NCBI GenBank assembly: GCA_017620255.1
Contig: JAFZQU010000037.1
Coordinates: 1-64,000, forward strand
Reading direction: 5' to 3'
Origin: Lachnospiraceae bacterium
GTDB lineage: Bacteria; Bacillota; Clostridia; Lachnospirales; Lachnospiraceae
DNA: 64,000 nt
Shown: piece after piece, positions 46,584-62,173 of the stretch
How the letters are laid out: the number at the start of each line of letters is the position of its first letter
Position numbering within the stretch: the first letter of the stretch is position 1
Made by a program: the position numbers and the translations under genes
Notes under the pieces: model-generated
What the model was told of the DNA's origin: nothing
The model's input: the letters and a program-made list of their open reading frames with translations, nothing else
The model's database searches: none

Positions 46584-48026
46584 ATGAAAAAGAAAGTTTT
46601 AAGCGTAGTACTTAGCGTTGCTATGGTAGCTACACTGCTTGCCGGATGTGGCGCAGCAGCAGAAGCACCCGTAGCAGAAGCTCCTGCAGCAGAAGAACCT
46701 GCAGCAGAAGAGCCTGCAGCAGAAGAGCCTGCAGCAGCAGAAGAAGTTGCTGAAGCTCCGGCTGGCGACAATGTGATCAATCTGTGGTCCTTCACAGACG
46801 AGATCCCGGGAATGGTTGACAAGTTCTTAGAGGCTAATCCTGATTTCGGTTACACTGTAAACACAACCATCATCGCTACAACAGATGGTGCTTATCAGCC
46901 CGCTCTGGACGCAGCTCTGGCAGCAGGTGGCGCAGAAGCTCCTGATATGTATGCAGCAGAAGCAGCTTTCGTTCTGAAGTATACACAGGGTGATGCTTAC
47001 CAGTATGCAGCTCCTTACAAGGATCTCGGTATCGATGTTGATAACGAGCTCAAGGCTGCTGACATCGCTCAGTACACAGTTGATATCGGAACAAACCCGG
47101 ATGGTGATCTGGTAGCTCTTGGTTATCAGGCAACAGGCGGTGCTTTCATTTACCGTCGTTCCATCGCTAAGGACGTATTCGGTTCTGATGATCCGGAAAC
47201 CGTTGCAGCTGAGATCGGTGCAGGTTCCCAGAACTTCGATAAGTTCTTCGAAGCAGCTAAGAAGTTAAAAGACAAAGGTTATGCTATCGTATCCGGTGAC
47301 GGCGATCTGTGGCACGCAGTTGAGAACAGCTCCGATCAGGGCTGGATCGTAGACGGCAAGCTGACGATCGATCCTAAGAGAGAAGCTTTCTTAGACTACT
47401 CCAAGGAACTGAAAGACAACGGTTATCATAATGATACTCAGGACTGGACAGATGCATGGTTCGCTGATATGAAGGACGAAGGTCCTAAGGGCGTATTCGC
47501 ATTCTTTGGTCCTGCATGGCTGATCAACTACACACTGGCTCCTAACTGTGGTGGCGAAGCTGTTGGCGAAGGCACATACGGTGACTGGGCAGTATGCGCA
47601 CCTCCGGTTGGTTTCTTCTGGGGCGGCACATGGGTTCTTGCTAACAAGGATTCGACAAAGAAAGAAGCAGTTGGCCAGATCATTGACTGGATCACTCTGA
47701 ACTGCACAGAAGACGGCTTACAGTACAAGTGGGCAAACGGTACTCTGAACGGCGAAGGCGGTACAAAGGACTGCGTAGCTTCCGGTACAGTAATGGCTAT
47801 GTCCGATGGTTCTCTTGATTTCTTAGGCGGACAGAACATGTTCGATGCATTTGTTCCTGCTAACCAGTATGCAAATGGTAAGAACCTGACTCAGTACGAC
47901 GAGACGATCAACTCCTACTGGAGAGATGCTGTTCGTCAGTACACATCAGGTGACAAGGACAGAGATGCTGCAATCGCAGACTTCAAGACAAACGTTGGTG
48001 ACAACCTTGACGTTGTAGTTGAATAA
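46584..48026 (+). CDS. sugar ABC transporter substrate-binding lipoprotein
   Basis: 480 residues. Lipoprotein signal ending TLLAGC, a PAAEE-repeat linker (about 28-58), then a type 1 extracellular solute-binding domain like MalE (about 62-480; NVINLWSFTDEIPGMV, later VFAFFGPAWLI). GGGAGG site. Codon use differs sharply from the neighbours (more T- and A-ending codons such as GCT, GCA, GGT), as in very highly expressed genes. Probably binds an oligosaccharide released by the surface glycosidases. Confidence 0.94.
   Translation: MKKKVLSVVLSVAMVATLLAGCGAAAEAPVAEAPAAEEPAAEEPAAEEPAAAEEVAEAPAGDNVINLWSFTDEIPGMVDKFLEANPDFGYTVNTTIIATTDGAYQPALDAALAAGGAEAPDMYAAEAAFVLKYTQGDAYQYAAPYKDLGIDVDNELKAADIAQYTVDIGTNPDGDLVALGYQATGGAFIYRRSIAKDVFGSDDPETVAAEIGAGSQNFDKFFEAAKKLKDKGYAIVSGDGDLWHAVENSSDQGWIVDGKLTIDPKREAFLDYSKELKDNGYHNDTQDWTDAWFADMKDEGPKGVFAFFGPAWLINYTLAPNCGGEAVGEGTYGDWAVCAPPVGFFWGGTWVLANKDSTKKEAVGQIIDWITLNCTEDGLQYKWANGTLNGEGGTKDCVASGTVMAMSDGSLDFLGGQNMFDAFVPANQYANGKNLTQYDETINSYWRDAVRQYTSGDKDRDAAIADFKTNVGDNLDVVVE
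46686..46730 (+). repeat. three tandem 15-bp units coding PAAEE-type repeats
   Basis: GCAGCAGAAGARCCT three times in a row, giving AAEEP repeats in the linker behind the lipid anchor. Prone to copy-number slippage, which would change linker length without a frameshift. Confidence 0.8.
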
Positions 48027-48060
48027 TCTATATAGATAATCAACTGACTCTGTGATATAA

Positions 48061-48092
48061 TATGGGCGGTGGAGCATTCTCCGCCGCCCATA
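48061..48092 (+). terminator. intercistronic stem-loop between the binding protein and permease
   Basis: A 14-bp stem (TATGGGCGGTGGAG) with CATT loop and one wobble, followed by a short AT stretch rather than T6. Typical of partial termination or mRNA stabilisation giving more binding protein than permease. Confidence 0.75.
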
Positions 48093-48122
48093 ATTTATGC
48101 AATGTATTGTTGGAGGACATGT

Positions 48123-49112
48123 ATGAAGCAAAAGAAACTCAGCTATGCGAAATACGGATATATGTTCTGTATTCCGTTTACGATCGCTTTTCTGATCTTT
48201 CAGCTCTACCCCGTATTGTACACGGCGGCGATCGGTTTTACCGATCTGAAGGGCCTTGGCAATACGGCGATCCATTTCTTATCCAGTGATCCGTTCAAGA
48301 ATTTCAAAACGATCTTAACAAACGGTTCCTTCAGGACAGCGTTTAAGAACACCTGGATGATCTGGGGGCTGAACTTTGTACCGCAGGTGCTTTTGGCACT
48401 GCTGCTTGCCGCTATCTTTACCAGTACCAGAGGAAAGATCAAGGGGCAGGGATTTTTCAAAGTCGTATTCTATATGCCGAACATCATCACGGCCGCAACG
48501 GTTGCGATCCTGTTCGCATCGTTCTTCGGATATCCGATGGGCCCGATGAACGACATCGTAACTACTCTGGGCATTTCCGATAAGCCTGTCTTTTTCCTGC
48601 AAAGCAAGACAACGGCGAGAGGGATCGTCGCCTTCATCCAGTTCTGGATGTGGTACGGCTATTCCATGATCGTTTTCATATCCGGTATCCTGGGTATCAG
48701 CCCGGATATCTTTGAGGCAGCCGAAGTGGACGGCGCGACCAGATTCCAGCAGTTTATCCATGTTACACTGCCGAACCTGCGTACGATCATGCTGTTCTCG
48801 CTTGTTACATCCCTGATCGGTGGTCTGCAGATGTTCGATATCCCGCAGCTCTTCATCACCAAGAGCGGCCCGGACAATGCAACACTGACGACCAGCTGCT
48901 TCATTTACAACCAGGCGTTTGCCGGCAGTTACATGTACAACCGTGCAGCCGCCGCAAGTATGATCATGTTCCTGATCATTTGTGTATGCTCCGCGATCCT
49001 GTTCTATCTCATGAGAGACAAGGACGAGGTTGCCCTGCATAAGATGATCAGACAGCAGGAGAAAGAATACAGAAAGAGATTAAAAGCAGAAAAACAGGGA
49101 GGTGACCGCTAA
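48123..49112 (+). CDS. sugar ABC transporter permease, MalF-like
   Basis: 329 residues with six or seven helices. The EAA coupling motif is present as EAAEVDGATRFQQFIHVTLP around residue 210. Start at 48123 with TTGGAGG 7 bases upstream; the longer frame covers the stem-loop. The C-terminus ends in a basic cytoplasmic tail. Its stop shares a base with the next ATG (TAATG). No ATPase gene is nearby, so it must share a general MsmX-type ATPase. Confidence 0.93.
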   Translation: MKQKKLSYAKYGYMFCIPFTIAFLIFQLYPVLYTAAIGFTDLKGLGNTAIHFLSSDPFKNFKTILTNGSFRTAFKNTWMIWGLNFVPQVLLALLLAAIFTSTRGKIKGQGFFKVVFYMPNIITAATVAILFASFFGYPMGPMNDIVTTLGISDKPVFFLQSKTTARGIVAFIQFWMWYGYSMIVFISGILGISPDIFEAAEVDGATRFQQFIHVTLPNLRTIMLFSLVTSLIGGLQMFDIPQLFITKSGPDNATLTTSCFIYNQAFAGSYMYNRAAAASMIMFLIICVCSAILFYLMRDKDEVALHKMIRQQEKEYRKRLKAEKQGGDR

Positions 49113-49957
49113 TGCATACTAAAAAACGTACTCCCGTAGCTTATCTGATCATTGTATATATTCTTTGTATCTTACTGGCAGCATTAAGTATTTTCCCGTT
49201 CTGGGTAATGGTTGTGAACGCAACACGTTCTACGACGCAGATCCAGCAGCACGCTGTATCGCTTGTTCCGTCGTCTTACCTGATGAACAACTTAAGGATC
49301 CTGCTCGGTAAGAGCTTTAACCCGGCCAGAGGGTTTATGAACTCCATCATCATTTCCGTCTGCGCAACGGCCTGCTCCGTTTACTTCTCAACTTTGACGG
49401 CATACGGCATCGTTGTTTACAACTGGAAACTGAAAAGAGCGTTCTTCACCTTCATCATGGCGATCATGATGATCCCCGGCCAGGTAACTATGATCGGTTA
49501 CTATCAGATGGTTTACAAGATCCACATGACAAACAATCTGTTAATGCTGATCCTGCCTGCGATCCAGGCACCGGCCATGGTATTCTTTATGAGACAGTAC
49601 ATGATCCCGGCACTTTCGCTTGAGATCGTACAGTCGGCCCGTATCGACGGCGCAAAGGAATTCTACATCTTCAACCGTATCGCGCTTCCGATCATGAAAC
49701 CGGCTATTGCCACACAGGCGATCTTCAGTTTCGTAACGAACTGGAATGACCTGTTCCGCCCGATGGTTCTTTTGACAGACCAGAAGAACTACACCATGCC
49801 GATCATGGTAAGTCTTCTGAAGGGTGATATTTATAAGACCGAATTCGGTTCCATTTATCTCGGCCTGACACTGACGGTACTTCCGCTGTTTGTTGTATAC
49901 TTCCTGTTATCGAAGTACATCATCGCGGGTGTTGCCCTTGGTTCCGTAAAAGGCTGA
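49112..49957 (+). CDS. sugar ABC transporter permease, MalG-like
   Basis: 281 residues, six helices, EAA motif as QSARIDGAKEFYIFNRIALP near residue 175. Forms the channel with the MalF-like protein. Overlaps it by one base and ends at a strong terminator, closing the three-gene operon. Confidence 0.94.
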   Translation: MHTKKRTPVAYLIIVYILCILLAALSIFPFWVMVVNATRSTTQIQQHAVSLVPSSYLMNNLRILLGKSFNPARGFMNSIIISVCATACSVYFSTLTAYGIVVYNWKLKRAFFTFIMAIMMIPGQVTMIGYYQMVYKIHMTNNLLMLILPAIQAPAMVFFMRQYMIPALSLEIVQSARIDGAKEFYIFNRIALPIMKPAIATQAIFSFVTNWNDLFRPMVLLTDQKNYTMPIMVSLLKGDIYKTEFGSIYLGLTLTVLPLFVVYFLLSKYIIAGVALGSVKG

Positions 49958-50636: not shown

Positions 50637-52346
50637 ATGAAACGTGAACCGTGGCAGAGATGCGCAGCATACCAGATCTACCCCAAAAGCTTCATGGACA
50701 GCAACGGGGACGGGATCGGTGACTTGAGAGGCATCCTTTCCAAACTGGATTATTTAAAGGATCTCGGGATCGATATCCTCTGGCTTTCCCCAATCTACTG
50801 CTCGCCGCTTGCGGACGAGGGATACGATATCTCCGATTATTTTCATATCGATCCGCGTTTCGGTACCATGGAGGATATGCAGGAACTCCTTGCTGAAGCG
50901 GACAAACGCGGGATCCGCGTTCTGATGGACCTTGTTGTCAATCACTGCTCCGATGAGCATGAATGGTTTCAGAAGGCCTGTAAGGACCCTGACGGACCAT
51001 ACGGCAAATACTTCTATATCGTGGATGCAAACGATCCGAACCCTGTCATAGCGCGTAATATCCGTGCAGGGAAGGCACCGACGAACTGGCGGTCGTATTT
51101 TGGCGGATCCGCCTGGGATAAATTGCCGGGACATGATGATAAATACTATCTGCATTTATTCCATAAGAAGCAGCCTGACTTAAACTGGGAAAACCCGGCG
51201 CTCAGGCAGGAAGTGTATGCGATGGTCAACTGGTGGCTTGACCGCGGGCTTGCAGGCTTCCGGATCGACGCCATCATCAATATCAAAAAAGCACTGCCGA
51301 TGCACGATTATCCGGCGGACCGCCCGGACGGGATGTGTTCGCTGCACGAGATGCTGGTGGAAGCGGAAGGCGTCGGCGTCTTTTTGCGGGAACTCAGGGA
51401 AGAGACTTTTGCAAAACATAACGCCTTCACGGTCGGTGAAGTGTTTGATATCGAACCGGATGAGATCCGCGATTATATCGGCGATGACGGATATTTTTCC
51501 ACGATGTTTGACTTCAGTGCCGTTGCGCTTGGAACCAGTCCCAAAGGCTGGTATGATTTTTCCGAAGTGGATCCCGTAGAATATATCGAGAGCATCTACC
51601 GTACGCAGGAGACGGTCGGTGACAACGGATTCATGAGCAATATCATTGAAAATCATGATGAGCCGAGGGGCGCTTCCCATTTCCTTCCGGAAGGGAACGT
51701 GACGCTTGCCGGGAAAAAGATGCTTGCCGTGATCACGATGATGAAGAGAGGACTCCCGTTCTTGTATCAGGGGCAGGAGATCGGCATGGAAAACTGCGAT
51801 TTCCCTTCGATCGATGCGATCGATGACTGCTCCTCGAAGGATGCTTACGAAGTGGCTCTGTCTGACGGGTGCAGTGAGGAAAAAGCCATGCATGCCCTGC
51901 GCAGGATGTCCAGGGACAACTCGCGTACGCCGATGCAGTGGAGTGATGAAGAAAACGCAGGTTTCACAACGGGCAGGCCCTGGATGATGTGCAATCCGAA
52001 TTACACATCGATCAACGTGGCCTCACAGATACACGATCCGGCTTCGCTCTATTCCCTCTATAAGGAACTGATCGCGCTTCGGAAATCAGAGGAATACGGG
52101 GAAACGGTCGTTTACGGTGACTTTGTAAAGGCGGCCGGAGATGACCCCGGAGTCATGGCTTTTTACAGATTGGATCATAAGAAAAAGCTGCTTGTGATCG
52201 CCAATTACCAGAACCGTGAGGGCAGATATAAACTGACGGAACGGTATAAGAAGATCCTGATCAATAACACCGCGCGTCTTCAGGAGACAGGGCAGGAACT
52301 GATCCTTGAAGCATATCAGGCGGTGATTTTGGAGATGACAGTATGA
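50637..52346 (+). CDS. GH13 alpha-glucosidase (oligo-1,6-glucosidase type)
   Basis: 569 residues, intracellular. Conserved regions: DLVVNH, GFRIDAI with nucleophile D211, VGEVFD with acid/base E268, and IENHDE with D341. The QPDLNWENP segment marks the oligo-1,6-glucosidase/trehalose-6-phosphate hydrolase/alpha-glucosidase subgroup (GH13_31-like). Cleaves short alpha-glucans or isomalto-oligosaccharides. Upstream frame start at 50613 is inside the previous gene; AGAGGG supports 50637. Overlaps the next gene by 4 bases (ATGA). Confidence 0.94.
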   Translation: MKREPWQRCAAYQIYPKSFMDSNGDGIGDLRGILSKLDYLKDLGIDILWLSPIYCSPLADEGYDISDYFHIDPRFGTMEDMQELLAEADKRGIRVLMDLVVNHCSDEHEWFQKACKDPDGPYGKYFYIVDANDPNPVIARNIRAGKAPTNWRSYFGGSAWDKLPGHDDKYYLHLFHKKQPDLNWENPALRQEVYAMVNWWLDRGLAGFRIDAIINIKKALPMHDYPADRPDGMCSLHEMLVEAEGVGVFLRELREETFAKHNAFTVGEVFDIEPDEIRDYIGDDGYFSTMFDFSAVALGTSPKGWYDFSEVDPVEYIESIYRTQETVGDNGFMSNIIENHDEPRGASHFLPEGNVTLAGKKMLAVITMMKRGLPFLYQGQEIGMENCDFPSIDAIDDCSSKDAYEVALSDGCSEEKAMHALRRMSRDNSRTPMQWSDEENAGFTTGRPWMMCNPNYTSINVASQIHDPASLYSLYKELIALRKSEEYGETVVYGDFVKAAGDDPGVMAFYRLDHKKKLLVIANYQNREGRYKLTERYKKILINNTARLQETGQELILEAYQAVILEMTV

Positions 52347-53716
52347 AGATATCAAAAAGAATCAGAAACTACATGCAGACCGAGATGAGTGAAGTCATGC
52401 ATACAACGCTGAATCCGGAAGGACCGGGCGTTGTCCGCATCCACCTCGTGCCGCCCAGATACGATGAGACAGGGCCCTGCAGCGTGGCCATCATCAACGG
52501 GTCGGACATCATCCCCGTGAACCTTTCCTGGGCGATCCTTCTGACGGAATTTATCCGTGAAGTCAACCGCTATCACGGACAGCCGATCACGCAGGAAGAC
52601 AGCAACGCGATCATGAAGCAGGTCATTAAGAACATGCACAGGCTCTATCCGCTGTTGCCTTCGTTTATGCTAAAGCGCGACATTGCGGTCATGCTGCATA
52701 CTTTTACGCAGATCGCGAGATCCAAAGTGCCGGATGTGCCTGTCGGCTATATGCGTATCGGCGATTACGCGCCCTATATGAAGGCACCGCACAGAATGGA
52801 TCTGATGATCAGCGCGATGGAAAAGGACGGCAGATGGAACTGCAACCAGCAGTGTGTGCACTGTTATGCGGCCGGACAGAAATGCGCCGGTGAGACGGAA
52901 CTTTCTACGGAAGAATGGAAACAGATCATCGATAACTGCAGGGCTGCAGGCATTCCGCAGGTGACTTTTACGGGCGGGGAACCGACCATGCGGGAAGACC
53001 TGACGGAACTGATCAGCCATGCGGCGTGGTTTGTTACAAGACTGAACACCAATGGCGTAAAACTTACGAAGGAATACTGCGAAGCGCTGTTTCAGGCATC
53101 GCTTGACAGCGTGCAGATCACTTTCTATTCCTCTGACCGGGAGATCCATGAGAAACTCGTCGGAGCCGCACAATATGAGGGCACGGTCGCCGGTATTGAA
53201 AACGCCCTGGCCTGCGGACTGAGCCTCAGTGTGAACACACCGCTCTGCACACTGAATAAGGATTACGTGAAGACGCTGGAGTTCCTGCATGAAAAGGGCG
53301 TGCAGTATGTGACCTGCTCCGGCCTGATCTTAACCGGAAATGCGAAGGATGCGGAATCCGAAGAACTGCAGCTTAGCGGGGAGGAACTCCGTGAGATCCT
53401 AAAGGACGCGGTTGCTTTCTGCCATGCAAATGAGATGGAGATCGCTTTCACGTCTCCGGGCTGGATCGGAAGTGACTTCTTTGAGGAACTGGGCATTGCA
53501 ACGCCGACCTGCGGTGCATGCTTAAGCAATATGGCCGTGACACCGGGCGGCAATATTGTTCCGTGCCAGAGCTGGCTTGATGATGCGCCGCTTGGAAACA
53601 TGCTGGCCGATCCGTGGGAGAAGATCTGGGAAAGCGAGAGATGTAAAAAACAGCGGGAGGTTTCCGCGAAGATGACCGGAATATGCTATTTGAATGGAGA
53701 GAACCGGAATGAATAA
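52343..53716 (+). CDS. radical SAM/SPASM enzyme coupled to a Cys-rich membrane protein
   Basis: 457 residues. Residues 1-150 are an unusual N-terminal extension without strong family match, perhaps a peptide-binding domain. The radical SAM core follows with WNCNQQCVHC (C167, C171, C174) and FTGGEPTMRED (211-214). The C-terminus is SPASM-like, with CGACLSNMAVTPGG and later VPCQSW and other Cys for auxiliary clusters. SPASM enzymes often make thioether or carbon-carbon links in Cys-rich peptides. It overlaps the GH13 stop by 4 bases and the Cys-tail gene by 8. Confidence 0.92.
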   Translation: MKISKRIRNYMQTEMSEVMHTTLNPEGPGVVRIHLVPPRYDETGPCSVAIINGSDIIPVNLSWAILLTEFIREVNRYHGQPITQEDSNAIMKQVIKNMHRLYPLLPSFMLKRDIAVMLHTFTQIARSKVPDVPVGYMRIGDYAPYMKAPHRMDLMISAMEKDGRWNCNQQCVHCYAAGQKCAGETELSTEEWKQIIDNCRAAGIPQVTFTGGEPTMREDLTELISHAAWFVTRLNTNGVKLTKEYCEALFQASLDSVQITFYSSDREIHEKLVGAAQYEGTVAGIENALACGLSLSVNTPLCTLNKDYVKTLEFLHEKGVQYVTCSGLILTGNAKDAESEELQLSGEELREILKDAVAFCHANEMEIAFTSPGWIGSDFFEELGIATPTCGACLSNMAVTPGGNIVPCQSWLDDAPLGNMLADPWEKIWESERCKKQREVSAKMTGICYLNGENRNE

Positions 53717-54968
53717 GAAACTGTTCAAAGTGCTTGGCACTATCATGATCTGTCTCGTTGCCTGCTTTGGCATGCAGCGCAGTGCGAATGCAAAACCGCT
53801 CGATGAGATCGAAAACTTTATCATCACGGTCAAAGTGAATGACGATGCCTCGCTGGATATGACATACCATCTGGACTGGAGAGTTCTGGATTCCGATTCG
53901 GAAGGCCCGCTCACCTGGGTACAGATCGGTGCCCCGAATAAAAATCATGTCAGTAACGTGACGGCGCTCAGCGACACGGTCAGCAGTGCAAAACTGGATG
54001 GGAGCAAATTCAGGATCGATCTGGACCGCGCCTATACGGAGGGCGAGCTGGTCAGCTTTGATTTCGGCTTCCGCCAGGATTACCTGTATCAGGTGAACAA
54101 GTTCCATGAAGGACAGACCGTCTATACCTATACACCCGGCTGGTTTGACGATATTGAGGTGGATGAACTTGTGATCCTGTGGGCGGAGGAAAAAGTGGAC
54201 AGTTTTACGCCGGAAGCGGATCTGCAGGCAGACTGGTATGTCTTTACAACACATCTTGCACCGGGAGAAAAATATACGGTCACGGTCACCTATCCGAACG
54301 ATGCCTACGGATTTGACTTAAGTCATACCGAGGAAGAGGATGATTCGGACCCGTGGTATATTTCGCTCATTGCCATCGTGATCTCGCTTGCCTCCATCGG
54401 GATGATGGTCGCTTTCTGTCTGCTGTTTTATTTTGCGATCGCTTATGTGGCCAATGCCGGATTCGGACTGCTCGGATACGGGCTCTCTGCCCTGACGGGG
54501 TCGAACAAAAAGGTTACGCGCACGAAGATCGAATACTATAATGCCTGCCCGGGCTGCGGCGGACCGCGTGTGGAAGGGCAGGATATCTGCGCATACTGCG
54601 GCAAGAACATGATCAAGAGCACCGAGACGATCACGGAAGAGCAACTGAACAAAGAATACAAGAATGCGAAGAACTTTAAGGTGGACGGCGATTATAAGAT
54701 CGGTAACTCCGGGAATGAATTTATCCGTGTGAGCACTGTGCCGATCACGCTTTCTTCCTATATGAAGAACGCTGCAAAAAGCAGCAGGGGAAGAGGAGGC
54801 GGAACGTCGCACCATTCGTCCTGTGCGCACAGTTCCTGCGCCTGTGCCTGTGCATGCGCCTGCGCGGGAGGCGGCAGGGCAGGCTGCTCCAATAAGGATT
54901 TTTACAAGACGGATCTGAAGCTTAAATATTTTGAAAACGCTAAACATCGGACGGATTCTATGGTATAA
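53709..54968 (+). CDS. secreted/membrane protein with zinc ribbon and alternating Cys-Ala tail
   Basis: 419 residues. Signal peptide 1-28 (SANA, then K), an extracytoplasmic beta-rich domain (about 30-205) resembling DUF2207, one or two membrane helices (about 217-262), a cytoplasmic zinc-ribbon (C280, C283, C294, C297), and a C-terminal tail that carries HHSSCAHSSCACACACACAG at residues 368-387 then GRAGC (Cys 372, 377, 379, 381, 383, 385, 393). Seven tail Cys spaced at every second residue are very unusual. GGAGAG before ATG 53709. Likely substrate of the radical SAM enzyme just upstream. Confidence 0.9.
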   Translation: MNKKLFKVLGTIMICLVACFGMQRSANAKPLDEIENFIITVKVNDDASLDMTYHLDWRVLDSDSEGPLTWVQIGAPNKNHVSNVTALSDTVSSAKLDGSKFRIDLDRAYTEGELVSFDFGFRQDYLYQVNKFHEGQTVYTYTPGWFDDIEVDELVILWAEEKVDSFTPEADLQADWYVFTTHLAPGEKYTVTVTYPNDAYGFDLSHTEEEDDSDPWYISLIAIVISLASIGMMVAFCLLFYFAIAYVANAGFGLLGYGLSALTGSNKKVTRTKIEYYNACPGCGGPRVEGQDICAYCGKNMIKSTETITEEQLNKEYKNAKNFKVDGDYKIGNSGNEFIRVSTVPITLSSYMKNAAKSSRGRGGGTSHHSSCAHSSCACACACACAGGGRAGCSNKDFYKTDLKLKYFENAKHRTDSMV

Positions 54969-56128: not shown

Positions 56129-56169
56129 CTGATTGGATGGACTTATGTCGGATCCTAAGGAGGTATGGG

Positions 56170-58320
56170 ATGGTATTGGAGAAGATCAGTGAATCCGTTG
56201 TGAAAAAGGATCACGCCCCCAAAATGGCTGGGGAAAGCATTTATGTGGCCGATTACAATACGGCCAAAGACGGCAGCAGGATCCTGACCGGAAAGGTACT
56301 GCATGCAAAGATCGCGCGTGCGAAGGTCCTCGGCGTGGATCTGCCGGAAATGCCAGACGGGTATTTGTATGTGGATGCGAAAGACATCCCCGGGGATAAT
56401 AACGTCAACATCGTGCTGGACGACATGCCCGTATTTTGCCGTGATACGGTTGAATACATCGGCGAGGCGATCGGCATGGTTGTAGGCCCCGATGAAAAAG
56501 AAGTGGACAGGATCCTGTCCGCGATAGAAGTCAGATACGAGGAACTGCCGCCGGTGCTCGATCTTCGTACTGCCAAAGAAGCATTCTTCACATACGAATA
56601 CGGGCACGGCGATATGGAAAAAGCATTCGCCGAGGCAGACCATGTGTATGAGGAAGAATTCGAGACCGGCTATCAGGAACAGACTTATCTGGAGACGCAG
56701 GGCATGATGGCCGAGCCGGAGGCGGACGGCAGTATGTATGTGCATGGCAGTATGCAGTGTATCTACTATGTGCACGGCGCGGTCAAGAGGGTCTTGAACT
56801 GTGAACAGGACGGCGTGCACATCTTTCAGGATGTGACAGGCGGCGGATTTGGCGGAAAAGAAGCGTTTCCGTCAATCCTGGCAACGCAGGTCGCCGTTGC
56901 GGCAAAGAAAGCAAATGCACCGGTCCGCTGCGTGTTTGACCGCAGAGAGGACATGGAATACACCTCGAAGCGTCATCCTTCGATCTGCCGTTACCGCGCA
57001 GCCGTCAAAGACGGGAAAGTCACGGCGATGGACTGTGATGTCGTCTTTAACGCAGGCGCGTATTCCACGCTTTCGGCAGTTGTCCTGCAGCGCGGACTGA
57101 TCGCAGCCCCCGGCGTCTATAACATACCGAATATCCATGTGACCGGAAGAGCACTGAAGACCAACACATCTCCCTGCGGCGCCTACAGAGGGTTTGGTGC
57201 ACCGCAGACTTTCTTTGCGATCGAGCGGATCATGGATCATATCGCACAGGACCTTTCGATCGAGCCGCTTGCATTTCGTGAAGCGCACCTTGTAAAAGAA
57301 GGAGATTCAACATCGACCTGCGGTCGATACCACTTCCCGGTGCCGCTGCAGGATATGATCAATGAGATCGATAAGGTTTCCGATTTCCGCAAAAAACGGA
57401 TCGAATACAATAAACCGCAGACCGGCAGATACCGCAGGGGGATCGGCATTTCCTTAAATTTCCACGGGGCCGGTTTTACGGGTTCAGGTGAGAGAGATAT
57501 CATCAAAGCAGTCACCAGACTGCGTAAATACGCCGACGGAAGCGTAGAGATCCTGGCATCAAACGGTGAGATCGGACAGGGTGTCAGGACCACGTTCTGC
57601 AAGATCGTCGCCAATGAACTGAACCTGCCCCTTTCCAAGGTGCGCTATGAGCATCCGGATACGGCAAGGGTTCCCGACTCAGGGCCGACGGTCGCATCCA
57701 GATCCCTGATGACGGTTGGCGAGCTGCTCCGCCGTGCATCGATCCAGCTTCGGGAGATCTGGGAGGACGGGATCGAACAGGAAGTGGAAGAGAGATACAG
57801 GCAGCCGGATTTCCTGATCCCGTTTGATCTGGATAAATTTGAAGGCGACGCCTATCCGACATACGCATGGGCGGTTAATGCCGTGGAACTGGAAGTGGAT
57901 ACATACACGGGTATCGCGCAGGTGCTTGGCGCGTACGGCAACTTCGATGTGGGTACACCGATGGATTACAACATCGTCATGGGCCAGATGGAAGGCGGAT
58001 TCCTGCAGGGGATCGGGTATTCCTCCATCGAGAAGATGGACTATGACAACAAGGGACGGATCCGGAACAATTCTTTCTCGGATTATCTGATCCCGACCAC
58101 AAAAGATGTGCCGAACATGCAGTGCATGCTGCACGTCGTAAAATATCCCGACGGACCGTACGGTGCGAAGGGAGCCGGGGAACTGCCGTTAGTCGGTGTG
58201 CCGGGTGCTTACGTCAGCGCACTTGAGCAGGCACTTGGCGGATGCAAAAAACACAGCCTGAATCATGCGCCGTTTACGGCGGAAGATACGCTGCTGGAAC
58301 TGATGAAGGAGGCGGAATGA
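56170..58320 (+). CDS. molybdenum hydroxylase, molybdenum-binding subunit (XdhA-type)
   Basis: 716 residues of the xanthine dehydrogenase/aldehyde oxidase family. An N-terminal oxidase a/b-hammerhead part (about 20-130) and the Moco domain: GGGFGGKE near residue 225, GAYRGFGAPQ, GEIGQGVRTTFCKIVANE (block 3) and GAKGAGELPL with the catalytic Glu. Hydroxylates an N-heterocycle or aldehyde; xanthine is the best guess but not proven. ATG 56170 is 6 bases after AAGGAGG. The Fe-S and FAD subunits follow directly. Confidence 0.93.
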   Translation: MVLEKISESVVKKDHAPKMAGESIYVADYNTAKDGSRILTGKVLHAKIARAKVLGVDLPEMPDGYLYVDAKDIPGDNNVNIVLDDMPVFCRDTVEYIGEAIGMVVGPDEKEVDRILSAIEVRYEELPPVLDLRTAKEAFFTYEYGHGDMEKAFAEADHVYEEEFETGYQEQTYLETQGMMAEPEADGSMYVHGSMQCIYYVHGAVKRVLNCEQDGVHIFQDVTGGGFGGKEAFPSILATQVAVAAKKANAPVRCVFDRREDMEYTSKRHPSICRYRAAVKDGKVTAMDCDVVFNAGAYSTLSAVVLQRGLIAAPGVYNIPNIHVTGRALKTNTSPCGAYRGFGAPQTFFAIERIMDHIAQDLSIEPLAFREAHLVKEGDSTSTCGRYHFPVPLQDMINEIDKVSDFRKKRIEYNKPQTGRYRRGIGISLNFHGAGFTGSGERDIIKAVTRLRKYADGSVEILASNGEIGQGVRTTFCKIVANELNLPLSKVRYEHPDTARVPDSGPTVASRSLMTVGELLRRASIQLREIWEDGIEQEVEERYRQPDFLIPFDLDKFEGDAYPTYAWAVNAVELEVDTYTGIAQVLGAYGNFDVGTPMDYNIVMGQMEGGFLQGIGYSSIEKMDYDNKGRIRNNSFSDYLIPTTKDVPNMQCMLHVVKYPDGPYGAKGAGELPLVGVPGAYVSALEQALGGCKKHSLNHAPFTAEDTLLELMKEAE

Positions 58321-58321
58321 T

Positions 58322-58789
58322 ATGGTTGAATTTGTATTGAACGGACAAAATGTATCATATGACGGAGATCCCGCAGACCGCCTGCTGGATGTACTGCGAG
58401 ATGTATTTGACTGTAAGAGCGTAAAGTGCGGATGTAAAGAAGGAGAGTGCGGCGCCTGCGCCGTTTTGATCGACGGGATCCTGTACAATTCCTGCTGTGT
58501 GGCCATGGGATCCTTATCCGGCAGATCCGTCCTGACACTTGAGGGATACCGGGAAACGGAGCGGTTTGCCGTGCTTGACAAGGCTTTTGGCGAAGCGTCG
58601 GCCGTACAGTGCGGTTTCTGTATTCCGGGCATGGTAATGGCGGCAGAAGCGCTGCTTTCAAAGAATCCGCATCCGGATAAGGATGAGATCCGCGAGGGCC
58701 TTTCCGGAAATCTGTGCCGCTGCACAGGCTATAATGCGATCGTGACCGCGATTGAAAACGCAGCAAAGGAGGGCAACGGATTATGGTAA
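58322..58789 (+). CDS. molybdenum hydroxylase, [2Fe-2S] subunit
   Basis: 155 residues with two [2Fe-2S] motifs: the plant-ferredoxin type CGCKEGECGACAVL with a later Cys, and the helical type CGFCIPGMVM with CRCTGY. Passes electrons from the molybdenum site to FAD. Starts 1 base after the large subunit stop and overlaps the FAD subunit by 7. Confidence 0.96.
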   Translation: MVEFVLNGQNVSYDGDPADRLLDVLRDVFDCKSVKCGCKEGECGACAVLIDGILYNSCCVAMGSLSGRSVLTLEGYRETERFAVLDKAFGEASAVQCGFCIPGMVMAAEALLSKNPHPDKDEIREGLSGNLCRCTGYNAIVTAIENAAKEGNGLW

Positions 58790-59595
58790 ATTACGCACCC
58801 CTGACATTGGATGAAGCATTATCGGTCCGTTCCTCTATGGAGGTTGTGCCTTATGCCGGCGGAACGGATCTGATGGTTGAAAACCGCAAGGATGTGACCT
58901 ATCTGTTTTTAAACCGCATCGATGAATTGAAGCAGATCCGGGAAGATGACCGCTATATCCGGATCGGCGCCGGTGTGACTTTTACGCAGGCGCTTGGCTG
59001 TGAGTTCGTCCCGCAGATCATGAAGGATGCACTCGCAAAGATCGCGGCTCCTGCGATCCGCAATGCCGGCACGTTCGGCGGCAATCTGGGAAACGGATCC
59101 GCAAAAGCGGATTCCGTCCTGATCGAATATGCAATGGATGCAAAGATCGTTCTGCGCTCCAAAGACGGAGAGCGGATCGTGGATGTCGACAGATTCTATC
59201 GCGGCAACAGGGACATCGACTTAAATAAGGACGAACTGATCACGGAGATCCTGCTTCCGAAGGATCCCATCGGCACCTACCGTTACCAGAAAGTCGGCGG
59301 CAGAAATGCACTTGCCATTTCCCGGATCAGTTTTGCCGGGATCTGCAAAACGGACGGGGAGAAGGTGACAAACTTTGCGGTTGCCTTTGGGGCGGTCAGC
59401 GCGACCGTTCTGCGCTTTAAGGAGATCGAAGCACGCCTTATTGGCAAGACGGTCAAAGAATGCGCTGCGATGAAAGAAGAGATCCTGAAACAATACAGTG
59501 ATGCCATGGTACTGACCAGGGGACGCGTGTCGGCGGAATACAGAAAGGCTGTCTGCACAAACCTGCTGCGTGACTTCCTGGACTCGGTTTTCTGA
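58783..59595 (+). CDS. molybdenum hydroxylase, FAD subunit
   Basis: 270 residues of the CO-dehydrogenase/XDH FAD-binding family: YAGGTDLMVE near residue 25, GGNLGNGSAKAD (FAD phosphate region) near residue 103, and the C-terminal CODH-type domain. Gives a three-subunit XdhA/XdhB/XdhC-like enzyme with the two genes before it. Followed at 13 bases by a second, fused hydroxylase. Confidence 0.95.
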   Translation: MVNYAPLTLDEALSVRSSMEVVPYAGGTDLMVENRKDVTYLFLNRIDELKQIREDDRYIRIGAGVTFTQALGCEFVPQIMKDALAKIAAPAIRNAGTFGGNLGNGSAKADSVLIEYAMDAKIVLRSKDGERIVDVDRFYRGNRDIDLNKDELITEILLPKDPIGTYRYQKVGGRNALAISRISFAGICKTDGEKVTNFAVAFGAVSATVLRFKEIEARLIGKTVKECAAMKEEILKQYSDAMVLTRGRVSAEYRKAVCTNLLRDFLDSVF

Positions 59596-59608
59596 TACGG
59601 AGAGAAAG

Positions 59609-62173
59609 ATGTATACGATCAATATCAACGGAAAAGACTATGAATGTGCGCATGACAAGAAACTCCTGCGCTTCCTGCGTGATGACCTCCATCTGACCGC
59701 GGCAAAGGACGGATGTTCCGAGGGCGCCTGCGGTACCTGTACGGTCCTGGTGGACGGGCAGAAGGTCAAGGCGTGTGTACCGCTCTTGTCCAAGCTGGAA
59801 GGGAAAAAGATCCTTACGGTAGAGGGGATCGATCCGGAGGAGATGCGCGTCTATGAACACTGCTTTGCACAGGCGGGAGCCGTGCAGTGCGGATTCTGCA
59901 TTCCCGGCATGATCATTTCCGCAAAAAGCCTGTTGGACGTGAACAAAAACCCCACCAGAAAGGATGTCAAGGCAGCGATCAAAGGAAATCTCTGCCGTTG
60001 CACCGGCTACCGGAAGATAGAGGATGCGATCCTGCTTGCGGCTGATTTCTTCAGGGAAAAGAAAGAGATCCCGGCAGCCCCTTCGCAACTGCATATGAAT
60101 GAACATGCAAAGCGGATCGATGCGGCGGAAAAGGTAAACGGAAAAGGGATCTATACGGATGATATCTATCTGCCGGGCATGCTGTACGGAAAATGCCTCT
60201 ATTCCAAATATCCGCGGGCCGTCATCAACGCGATCCGTGTGGAAAAAGCGCTCGCACATCCCGATTGTGTGGAGATCCTGACCAAAGAGGACGTGCCCTA
60301 CAATCTCATCGGGCACCTGAAACAGGACTGGGATGTAATGATGGGCGTGGGCGATACCACGAAGTATCTCGGGAACGTACTGGCTGTTGTTGCTTCCAAC
60401 AAACAGGAAGCACTGGATGAGATCCTCTCCCTGATCGAAGTGGATTATACCGAACTGAAACCGGTCACCTCCCCGTATGATGCGCTGCGGGGCGATGCAC
60501 CGCTGCTCCATCCGGACGGGAATGTGATGAGCCGCGCCAATCTGGTCCGCGGAAACGCAGATCAGGCTATTGCAAATTCCAAATATGTGGTCACGAGAAA
60601 ATATAAGACACCCTGGCAGGAACACGGCTTCATGGAGCCGGAATGCTGCGTGGCACTTCCGGAAGGGGAAGACGGACTTCTGATCTATACGACGAGCCAG
60701 TCCATTTATGACGTGCAGCGCGAATGCGCGCAGATGTTAAAGCTCCCGCCGGAAAAAGTACACGTGCATGCACCGCTTGTCGGCGGCGGTTTCGGCGGCA
60801 AAGAAGACATGACCGTGCAGCCGTATGCGGCGCTGTTAGCCTGGGTTCTGAAACAGCCCGTCAAGATCAAATATTCCAGACAGGAAAGCCTTGCCTACCA
60901 TGTCAAGCGCCATCCGATGGAAATGGAATTTACGACGGCCTGCGATGAAAACGGGATACTCACCGCCATGAAAGGCATAATCATAGCAGATACGGGTGCG
61001 TACGCTTCCCTTGGAGGACCGGTACTCCACCGGGCCTGCACGCATGCCGCGGGACCGTATAATTATCAGAATATCGATATCTTCGGCATGTCGGTCTATA
61101 CCAATAATGTCGTAGCAGGAGCCTTCCGCGGGTTTGGCGTTACGCAGAGCTGCTTTGCCACGGAAATGAACATCAATCTGCTTGCGGAAATGGTCGGACT
61201 CGACCCGTGGGAATTCCGCAGGAGAAACGCGATCAAACCGGGAGATATCTTACCGAACGGACAGACGGCAGACCCGAATACGAACATGGAAGCCTGCCTG
61301 GATGCCGTGAAGGATATCTTTTACCAAAACAAATATGCAGGCATCGCCTGCGGGTTCAAGAATTCCGGAACCGGTATGGGAAAAAAGGATATCGGACGTG
61401 TTCTTTTATCCGTGGAAGACGGAAAGATCCATATCCGCACCTCCGCTTCCTGTATGGGACAGGGGATCGGGCAGATGGTCCTGACCGAGATCTGTCATGT
61501 CACGGATCTGGATCCGGCGCTGTTTGTCTTTGAGAATGCCGACACGGTCAGGACGCCTGATGCAGGCACATCCACCGCGTCGCGCCAGACAGTCATGACA
61601 GGTGAAGCCGCCAGACGCGCCGGCGAGAAACTGAAACTGGCGATGCAGGGTAAAACGGTCAGTGATCTGAACGGGATGGAATTCTTCGGCGAGTTCTCCG
61701 CCATCACGGATCCGCTCGGAGCCATCAAGGAAAATCCTGTCAGCCATATTTCTTACTCCTACGGTGTGCAGGTGGTGATCCTGAATGAAGAGGGCAGGAT
61801 CGAAAAAGCCGTTTCCGCATTTGATGTGGGAACGCCCGTGAACATCCAGTCCGTGGAAGGACAGATCGAGGGCGGCATGCTCATGGGAATCGGCTATGGT
61901 GTGACCGAGAAGTTTGAATGTGTGGACGGCTATCCGAAGAGCCGGTTCGGAACGATCGGATTTATGCGTGCGGACGCAGCCCCCGAACTGGATGTGATCT
62001 TATGCGAACCGAAGGAAGAGGATAAATTGCAATATTCGCTTGGCGCCAAAGGGTGCGGGGAACTGTGTATGATCCCGACTGCACCGGCTTGTGCGCTGGC
62101 TTACTACAGATATGACGGCAAATTCAGGCAGGAACTTCCGCTTGCGGATACGCCCTACAGGCCGGGTAAATAA
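59609..62173 (+). CDS. fused [2Fe-2S]/molybdenum hydroxylase, selenium-dependent XDH type
   Basis: 854 residues. Residues 1-160 hold both [2Fe-2S] motifs (KDGCSEGACGTCTVLVDG; CGFCIPGMI with CRCTGYR); 165-854 the molybdenum domain with GGGFGGKED, GAFRGFGVTQ, MGQGIGQM and GAKGCGELCM with the catalytic Glu. Its N-terminus closely fits proteins annotated as selenium-dependent xanthine dehydrogenase (labile selenium, TIGR03311 as I recall it), also MOP-like aldehyde oxidoreductases. It lacks a FAD domain of its own and may share the one upstream. No selD or yqeB/yqeC is in the window. Start 59609 with GGAGAG. Confidence 0.9.
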   Translation: MYTININGKDYECAHDKKLLRFLRDDLHLTAAKDGCSEGACGTCTVLVDGQKVKACVPLLSKLEGKKILTVEGIDPEEMRVYEHCFAQAGAVQCGFCIPGMIISAKSLLDVNKNPTRKDVKAAIKGNLCRCTGYRKIEDAILLAADFFREKKEIPAAPSQLHMNEHAKRIDAAEKVNGKGIYTDDIYLPGMLYGKCLYSKYPRAVINAIRVEKALAHPDCVEILTKEDVPYNLIGHLKQDWDVMMGVGDTTKYLGNVLAVVASNKQEALDEILSLIEVDYTELKPVTSPYDALRGDAPLLHPDGNVMSRANLVRGNADQAIANSKYVVTRKYKTPWQEHGFMEPECCVALPEGEDGLLIYTTSQSIYDVQRECAQMLKLPPEKVHVHAPLVGGGFGGKEDMTVQPYAALLAWVLKQPVKIKYSRQESLAYHVKRHPMEMEFTTACDENGILTAMKGIIIADTGAYASLGGPVLHRACTHAAGPYNYQNIDIFGMSVYTNNVVAGAFRGFGVTQSCFATEMNINLLAEMVGLDPWEFRRRNAIKPGDILPNGQTADPNTNMEACLDAVKDIFYQNKYAGIACGFKNSGTGMGKKDIGRVLLSVEDGKIHIRTSASCMGQGIGQMVLTEICHVTDLDPALFVFENADTVRTPDAGTSTASRQTVMTGEAARRAGEKLKLAMQGKTVSDLNGMEFFGEFSAITDPLGAIKENPVSHISYSYGVQVVILNEEGRIEKAVSAFDVGTPVNIQSVEGQIEGGMLMGIGYGVTEKFECVDGYPKSRFGTIGFMRADAAPELDVILCEPKEEDKLQYSLGAKGCGELCMIPTAPACALAYYRYDGKFRQELPLADTPYRPGK

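Follow-up and report, generated by a model that had tools for sequence, protein, structure and literature searches.

A widespread radical SAM/SPASM enzyme paired with a membrane protein that bears a conserved Cys-Ala tail, its probable substrate

Introduction

Most of what is known of the peptide chemistry of radical S-adenosylmethionine (SAM) enzymes concerns small secreted peptides, together with a few protein edits. A recognition element for ribosomally synthesised and post-translationally modified peptides (RiPPs), the RRE, is reported in AlbA and ThnB. SuiB makes the Lys-Trp crosslink in streptide and its substrate is a small peptide, while the anaerobic sulfatase-maturating enzymes (anSME), which are not known to have an RRE, recognise the motif C-X-A/P-X-R and edit a single site, the catalytic residue of an enzyme. 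The locus described here lies in a stretch of 64,000 nucleotides (the window) of a Lachnospiraceae bacterium (assembly GCA_017620255.1, contig JAFZQU010000037.1, positions 1 to 64,000), and consists of a gene for a radical SAM/SPASM enzyme followed by a gene for a membrane protein with a tail of alternating Cys and Ala residues. Among the links that join Cys sulfur to an alpha-carbon, the acceptors named in the consulted part of one source are Ala25 of Trn-beta in thuricin CD, Ala12 of RumC1 in ruminococcin C1, and Ser28 and Gly34 of streptosactin; the streptosactin links are given there as Cys31-Gly34 and Cys25-Ser28 in one place and as Cys15-Ser28 in another passage (PMC8172795). PapB, according to an excerpt of a further source, joins Cys to Asp or Glu (PMC9413430). 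As for the membrane protein, pairs of DUF2207 and LemA proteins are noted in the part of the literature drawn on here (PMC12631010), and a DUF2207 mutant of S. mutans is reported to be altered in its tolerance of stress and in its biofilm (PMC10457818).

The pair of genes is a real system with a wide distribution. It is proposed, at a probability of roughly 0.7, that they form a dedicated modification pair in which the enzyme modifies the cytosolic Cys-Ala tail of its partner, most likely by thioether links. The enzyme class and its probable chemistry are known, whereas a substrate that is an integral membrane protein and retains the tail after modification was not found described; the search for a system of an enzyme and a Cys-tailed membrane protein covered one open-access library.

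Pairing of the enzyme with the tail

A survey of 150 genomes of the family, the window's own included, used thresholds of E <= 1e-40 for the enzyme and E <= 1e-3 for the membrane protein. The enzyme is present in 13 genomes, and in the same 13 a tailed protein directly adjoins it. Membrane protein matches occur in 17 genomes, comprising the 13 that are enzyme-positive and four with weak matches; those in G013, G061 and G073 span only parts near the membrane helix and the zinc ribbon, and G082 (locus L018), which has no enzyme match, encodes a similar membrane protein without a tail. A DNA pattern of four consecutive Cys-Ala codon pairs minus the last base, which misses shorter or CHSA-type tails, is found in 14 of the 150 genomes, namely the 13 with the enzyme and G048, where the pattern falls on the strand opposite to a stretch that reads AQAQAQ. 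When the survey is extended to 391 genomes of the class, a profile of the 13 enzymes matches 14 at E <= 1e-40, of which 11 are of the window's type (type I) and three of a second type. All 11 genomes with a type I enzyme have the tail, which was read in the window, seven relatives (L174, L178, L179, L180, L182, L183 and L168), G345, G383 and G507, with tail and enzyme on different contigs in G345 and G383. The DNA pattern again occurs in 14 genomes, the same 11 plus G163, G206 and G233, in which neither a tail core nor a similar membrane protein was found. By this pattern, no real tail without the enzyme was seen in the 150 family and 391 class genomes, the four additional matches being spurious.

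A scan of one genome per species (tblastn, E <= 1e-3) returned at least 505 stretches encoding an enzyme relative, and the best 80 of 505 were kept, a sample biased toward near relatives; some of the scanned records carry unverified labels from outside the Lachnospiraceae (Atopobiaceae, Eggerthellaceae, Coriobacteriaceae, Spirochaetes). Altogether 101 type I enzyme loci were inspected, and 88 of them contain the strict tail motif. The tailed protein runs past the contig end in nine loci, among them L076 and L182, with a partial tail visible, and L173 and L181, whose tail lies on another contig; L103 and L133 end ahead of the tail gene. The tail gene of L174 (2660-5592) is split by ORFs that read as transposase-like, with the tail in the far piece and the adjoining enzyme intact, and that of L094 apparently carries a frameshift that moves the tail into the following ORF. 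None of the 101 loci shows an enzyme beside an intact tailless neighbour. One enzyme may be accompanied by two tailed paralogues, which are divergent in L093 (35-1300, 2907-4154) and in tandem in L178 (3782-5709), where one paralogue has Tyr in place of a core Cys. A single scan of a viral collection gave no relative.

The first-pass annotation had proposed a full-length membrane protein as the carrier of a modified tail, and had named as contrary outcomes a tail that is widespread without the enzyme and an enzyme that is widespread beside unrelated genes. No real case of the former was encountered with the DNA pattern in the 150 family and 391 class genomes and no intact case of the latter in the 101 loci, and the co-occurrence count that it called for gives 13 of 13 family and 11 of 11 class genomes with a type I enzyme; at the level of sequence, these genomic tests support its proposal. 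The tailless protein of L018 (1366-2211), from an enzyme-negative genome, is possibly an ancestor-like control.

Conservation of the tail

The type I loci yield 100 distinct membrane proteins besides that of the window, 89 of them with a readable tail. The core follows the pattern (CA)4-[GG/SS]-G-R-A-G-C with two single-residue exceptions in the 89 relatives, Cys to Tyr and Ala to Val. The run CACACACA is present in 88 tails, the remaining one carrying CAYACACA, and is followed by GG (69 tails) or SS (20) and then by G, R, A (88; V in one), G and C. Conservation continues past the core Cys with S or T, any residue, K (88), D or E (88), F (87) and Y or F (88).

At the DNA level the picture is different. 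The fifteen codons of the core, in rows anchored on GR[A/V]GC only, form 89 distinct DNA words. Four peptides result, and two of these account for 87 of the 89 rows. Differences per site among the 89 relatives are 0.56 at third positions and 0.06 at first and second positions; for 166 outer-domain columns in these genes the corresponding values are 0.64 and 0.36. Since the core is near-invariant although no two of the 89 DNA words are alike, selection acts at the level of the protein, and an origin of the Cys-Ala run by chance or as a microsatellite was rejected on the basis of this controlled test and the fixed flanking residues. In the aligned sequences the tail is the most constrained part of the membrane protein, and the Ala residues of the core are as constrained as the Cys.

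The membrane protein

As already reported in the first-pass annotation, the two genes overlap by 8 bases, the enzyme ending at 53716 and the membrane protein starting at 53709; the frame of the latter holds an additional ATG at 53694. The Cys residues of the 419-residue form are 15, 19, 237, 280, 283, 294 and 297 and, at the tail positions listed in the same annotation, 372, 377, 379, 381, 383, 385 and 393. The domains and topology of both proteins are predicted. With respect to the membrane protein, the signal stretch, outer domain and membrane helix that had been proposed are borne out by prediction, and the label 'DUF2207-like' rests on a match to PF09972 below the gathering cut-off (16.6 bits vs 24.4, with 19.6 in one type II relative). 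The tail is predicted to be disordered, with block means of 29-38 in the predicted local distance difference test (pLDDT) for residues 351-400. The tail-bearing C-terminus is probably cytosolic, because in 84 of 89 proteins the net charge is greater on the C-terminal than on the N-terminal side of the hydrophobic stretch. Cys280, 283, 294 and 297 look like a candidate zinc ribbon, a part that is missing in five of 13 aligned proteins (L044, L047, L051, L053 and L054) and was therefore rejected as essential. Over its whole length the protein is 31-46% identical to 12 aligned relatives. The outer domain has the same fold as ribophorin I/Ost1, a subunit of the eukaryotic oligosaccharyltransferase, with an identity of 11-14%.

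The enzyme

Matches to the Pfam families Radical_SAM (1.3e-20) and SPASM (3.6e-07) both exceed the cut-off, and the CX3CX2C cluster motif lies within a TIM-type barrel, as in the radical SAM superfamily. The first-pass annotation had suggested that the N-terminal 150 residues are a recognition domain. This idea gains support, short of proof, from a beta-beta-beta-alpha-alpha-alpha arrangement of residues 31-125 in the model and from the alignments of SuiB and SkfB, whose first and last residues place their start at residue 33. The N-termini of type I and type IV enzymes are homologous in a profile comparison that is partly one-sided for other pairs (III to IV 69, IV to III 19; V to I 66, I to V 21); one of the five type IV rows was dropped from it, L047 was excluded from type I, and the L206 row was cut with coordinates that span four stops. 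In L047 (9520-11322) the N-terminus of the enzyme reads as PVSGGRKEAREG-like repeats, and the recognition domain may there be lost or misread.

The nearest solved folds of the enzyme model include the RiPP maturases SuiB and SkfB, tied with anSME and others, with SkfB third by Z within the tie and EpeE well below SuiB, SkfB and anSME; few rows of this comparison cover the first 51 residues. Membership in a curated maturase family was rejected, as none of the 25 best of 65 listed NCBIfam matches reaches its cut-off (the best, NirJ2, scores 109 bits vs 500).

Related enzyme types and their tails

Four diverged enzyme clades adjoin membrane proteins with related tails, either (CA)n or (CHSA)n. 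Type II enzymes (G370, G250, G519, G544, G810 and G629) are 22-26% identical to that of the window over its length, and their membrane protein, which is encoded directly upstream of the enzyme and spread over two ORFs in G544, ends in (CHSA)n-CVSGGAR. A type II profile gave 17 matches at E <= 1e-45 in 398 genomes of the phylum, comprising three of type II, four of type III and ten of type IV. The tail could be read in 16 of the 17 (partially in G759, at a contig end), and G869 shows a run of N at the tail site. The type III C-terminus is CACACACACASSGGCT or CACACACACAGGGGCT, and the type IV tail is GCACVSCACACVSCACACACAGGGGAGC or near to it. In some type IV loci the tail protein also contains a fused TPM domain, recognised by Pfam in L205 and L206 and by likeness to these in L208. 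A further survey with a broad profile (A6) covered 198 genomes from the phylum that includes the L102 genome (a record labelled Atopobiaceae) and gave 20 matches at 1e-45, four of which carry a tail: G921 is of type I, G1057 and G1036 are of type V, ending in CACACAGGGR, and in G1025 both genes are interrupted with the tail letters still visible. A glycyl-radical-type target (GGGR) was considered and dropped, the motif not being common to types II and III.

In a tree of 26 enzymes every type is a single clade (bootstrap 99-100) and the four CA-tail types are joined (97/96) apart from type II; the outgroup consists of five background radical SAM proteins, and other families could fall inside. 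The tail grammar tracks this tree. The residue three positions after each Cys is Ala, Ser or Gly in 622 of 628 cases in type I (last Cys excluded), 57 of 57 in type II, 20 of 20 in type III where such a residue exists, and 11 of 13 in type V.

Downstream of the type II enzyme lies a third gene that by eye appears conserved, mostly of about 330 residues and membrane-like (Table 1); the two members tested gave no Pfam match above the cut-off.

Gene neighbourhood

The tail protein is beside the enzyme in 61 of 73 loci and the next most frequent neighbour cluster occurs in 7, a count that took loci of >= 9 kb, left out those under 9 kb, and missed the tail gene wherever a longer antisense ORF overlaps it. 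The tail protein is thus the sole widely conserved neighbour. The GH13 and hypothetical genes upstream, which the first-pass annotation had placed in the same operon, lack wide conservation among these loci, and a GH13 operon as a functional unit was rejected. Further upstream of the GH13 gene, ORFs at 46584-49957 of the window resemble a sugar ABC transporter (a lipoprotein and two permeases) in their translations, and an ORF run at 56137-62173 resembles the subunits of a xanthine-dehydrogenase-type molybdenum hydroxylase, likewise as read from translations.

Table 1. Features of the two-gene locus (window coordinates) and of related loci (coordinates following the locus name)
Feature	Position	Strand	Basis
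Radical SAM/SPASM enzyme (type I), 457 aa	52343..53716	+	ORF; Pfam Radical_SAM and SPASM; AlphaFold model, mean pLDDT 91.6
RRE-like (PqqD-like) N-terminal domain, residues 31-125	52433..52717	+	Model; SuiB/SkfB alignment; homologous N-termini in type IV
CX3CX2C motif (C167, C171, C174) for the SAM-binding 4Fe-4S cluster	52841..52864	+	Invariant in alignments
SPASM region, residues 390-448, reduced in type I	53510..53686	+	Pfam; Cys inventory by type
Tail-bearing membrane protein, 419 aa	53709..54968	+	ORF from ATG 53709; tailed relatives adjoin the enzyme in enzyme-positive family genomes
N-terminal hydrophobic stretch, probable signal peptide, residues 1-28	53709..53792	+	Hydrophobic in 89/89 proteins; model helix 3-21
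Outer beta domain (predicted), residues 31-203	53799..54317	+	
Membrane helix (predicted), residues 215-249	54351..54455	+	Model
Zinc-ribbon-like CXXC...CXXC, residues 280-297	54546..54599	+	Alignment; not kept in all relatives
Cysteine tail, proposed substrate, residues 369-403	54813..54917	+	Cys list, alignments; predicted disordered
Invariant tail core CACACACAGGGRAGC, residues 379-393	54843..54887	+	89 distinct relatives
Type II third gene	L175:4245-5237, L176:3571-4596, L177:62-1045, L201:5957-6934, L202:3841-4863, L203:3310-4143		
Type IV TPM-fused tail proteins	L205:2446-4284, L206:2367-4439, L208:873-2687		
LemA gene next to type IV tail protein	L205:1814-2614		Pfam

Proposed modification and alternatives

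The tail is likely to be the substrate of the neighbouring enzyme. This is strongly indicated by the fixity of the tail, by the recognition-type domain of an enzyme that is private to it, by RiPP-maturase folds nearby and by a tail grammar that follows the enzyme tree. It is proposed that the membrane protein is exported via its N-terminus and crosses the membrane once, which would place the ribophorin I-like beta domain outside and the flexible Cys-Ala tail on the cytosolic side. The enzyme, itself cytosolic, would then grip its partner through the RRE-like N-terminal domain and use a 5'-deoxyadenosyl radical to modify the tail, forming sulfur-to-carbon (thioether) links, a chemistry proposed with moderate confidence, from Cys to Ala, Ser or Gly. 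Ala probably takes part, because it is fixed between the Cys residues. The acceptor may be three residues ahead: the streptosactin linkages to Ser and Gly three residues on, the precedent of Ala as an acceptor and the counts given above weakly suggest an i to i+3 ladder of S-to-alpha-carbon links, the outcome of which would be a staircase of small rings. No peptide release is implied; the modified tail would remain on the envelope protein as a rigid cytosolic appendage that is poor in thiols or shapes a metal site.

Several observations weigh against this proposal. Three of the four Cys in the CX2CX5CX3C block of the second SPASM cluster are lost in type I, whereas types II-IV retain the block. 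The type I N-terminus has no PqqD match, PqqD being found in type II relatives only and there below threshold, and the comparison of type I with type II N-terminal profiles gave nothing (probability 0.5). The fold gives crosslinking no particular preference, since SuiB and SkfB share their rank with anSME and viperin-like enzymes. The other 16 of the 20 matches to profile A6 are other radical SAM proteins, with no tail in the picked ORFs of the fetched stretches. With regard to the register, the last type I Cys (GRAGC) has Lys at i+3 and only 20 of 36 type IV residues at this position (last Cys excluded) are Ala, Ser or Gly, the others being 8 Val and 8 Cys, so the i+3 rule is not general; its residues are moreover partly expected from the composition of the tail.

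Other readings of the pair have to be weighed against the same evidence. The five Cys of the type I core, the type II Cys/His repeats with their resemblance to a metal sponge, and the extra clusters borne by SPASM enzymes would all suit an unmodified tail that binds metal or an iron-sulfur cluster, with the enzyme as a maturation factor that loads or builds the metal centre. This is considered unlikely, since Ala at each second core position is as invariant as Cys, types III and V end almost directly past the run, and the RRE-like domain together with the SuiB and SkfB fold neighbours points toward peptide modification. The enzyme is predicted to be soluble and in some loci serves two tailed proteins, which would agree with a tail that acts as a docking or electron-donating handle to bring the enzyme to the membrane while the real substrate is elsewhere; this looks quite improbable given that the 73 loci hold no other widely conserved neighbour and that the repeat grammar appears typical of multi-site substrates.

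Two further alternatives retain the tail as the target and differ in the chemistry. Epimerisation of Ala to D-Ala would give a tail of alternating L-Cys and D-Ala, folded into a beta-helix or presenting its thiols in a special array, but EpeE ranks poorly in the fold comparison, alternation is absent from the (CHSA)n tail of type II and the fixed Cys would be left unexplained, all of which leaves this reading very little likelihood. If Cys were oxidised in the manner of anSME, giving formylglycine or a thioaldehyde-type product instead of a crosslink, the many repeats would be left without a reason, and the Arg five residues past the last Cys of the run does not conform to the anSME motif; such an oxidation is highly unlikely.

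Thioether crosslinking of the tail is the preferred reading. In its widest form, which is put forward tentatively and may well not hold as stated, it would amount to an undescribed, widespread modification in which envelope proteins associated with LemA/TPM receive multi-ring thioether ladders, from Cys i to Ala, Ser or Gly i+3, on their cytosolic tails from diverged radical SAM/SPASM enzymes of probably two bacterial phyla. A role in envelope maintenance is weakly suggested, by analogy, by the type IV TPM fusions, the LemA neighbour and the stress and biofilm effects of the DUF2207 mutant. If the proposal is true, many gut and rumen bacteria would carry out a multi-site edit of the cytosolic end of a membrane protein, a new post-translational modification for envelope biology, and an integral membrane protein would permanently bear a RiPP-like crosslinked appendage. 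Proteins of the DUF2207/TPM/LemA kind would thereby gain a testable handle, and the five tail variants would be ready-made test substrates for enzymes that act on a simple, ordered repeat.

Comparison with known systems

Like the DUF2207/TPM/LemA envelope proteins, the membrane protein is predicted to combine an outer beta domain with a membrane helix, and the TPM fusions and LemA neighbour of type IV add to the likeness; it differs from them in its sub-threshold DUF2207 score, and the consulted parts of the literature on such proteins do not mention a Cys tail with a radical SAM partner (PMC12631010, PMC10457818). The tail core differs from the substrate of SuiB in having no Lys-Trp pair and, with the exception of the CHDA units of type II, from those of the ranthipeptide maturases CteB and PapB in having no Asp or Glu between the Cys residues. 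The sactipeptide maturases (AlbA, SkfB, RumMC and GggB) are similar in that they combine radical SAM and SPASM domains and act at multiple sites on a Cys-rich substrate, as is proposed for the window enzyme, and SkfB is near in fold. They differ in that the type I SPASM domain of the window enzyme is reduced and in that its neighbours include no widely conserved exporter or protease. Above all, where a sactipeptide is released from a small leader-bearing precursor, the candidate substrate here is a full-length membrane protein of 419 residues that carries its tail near the C-terminus.

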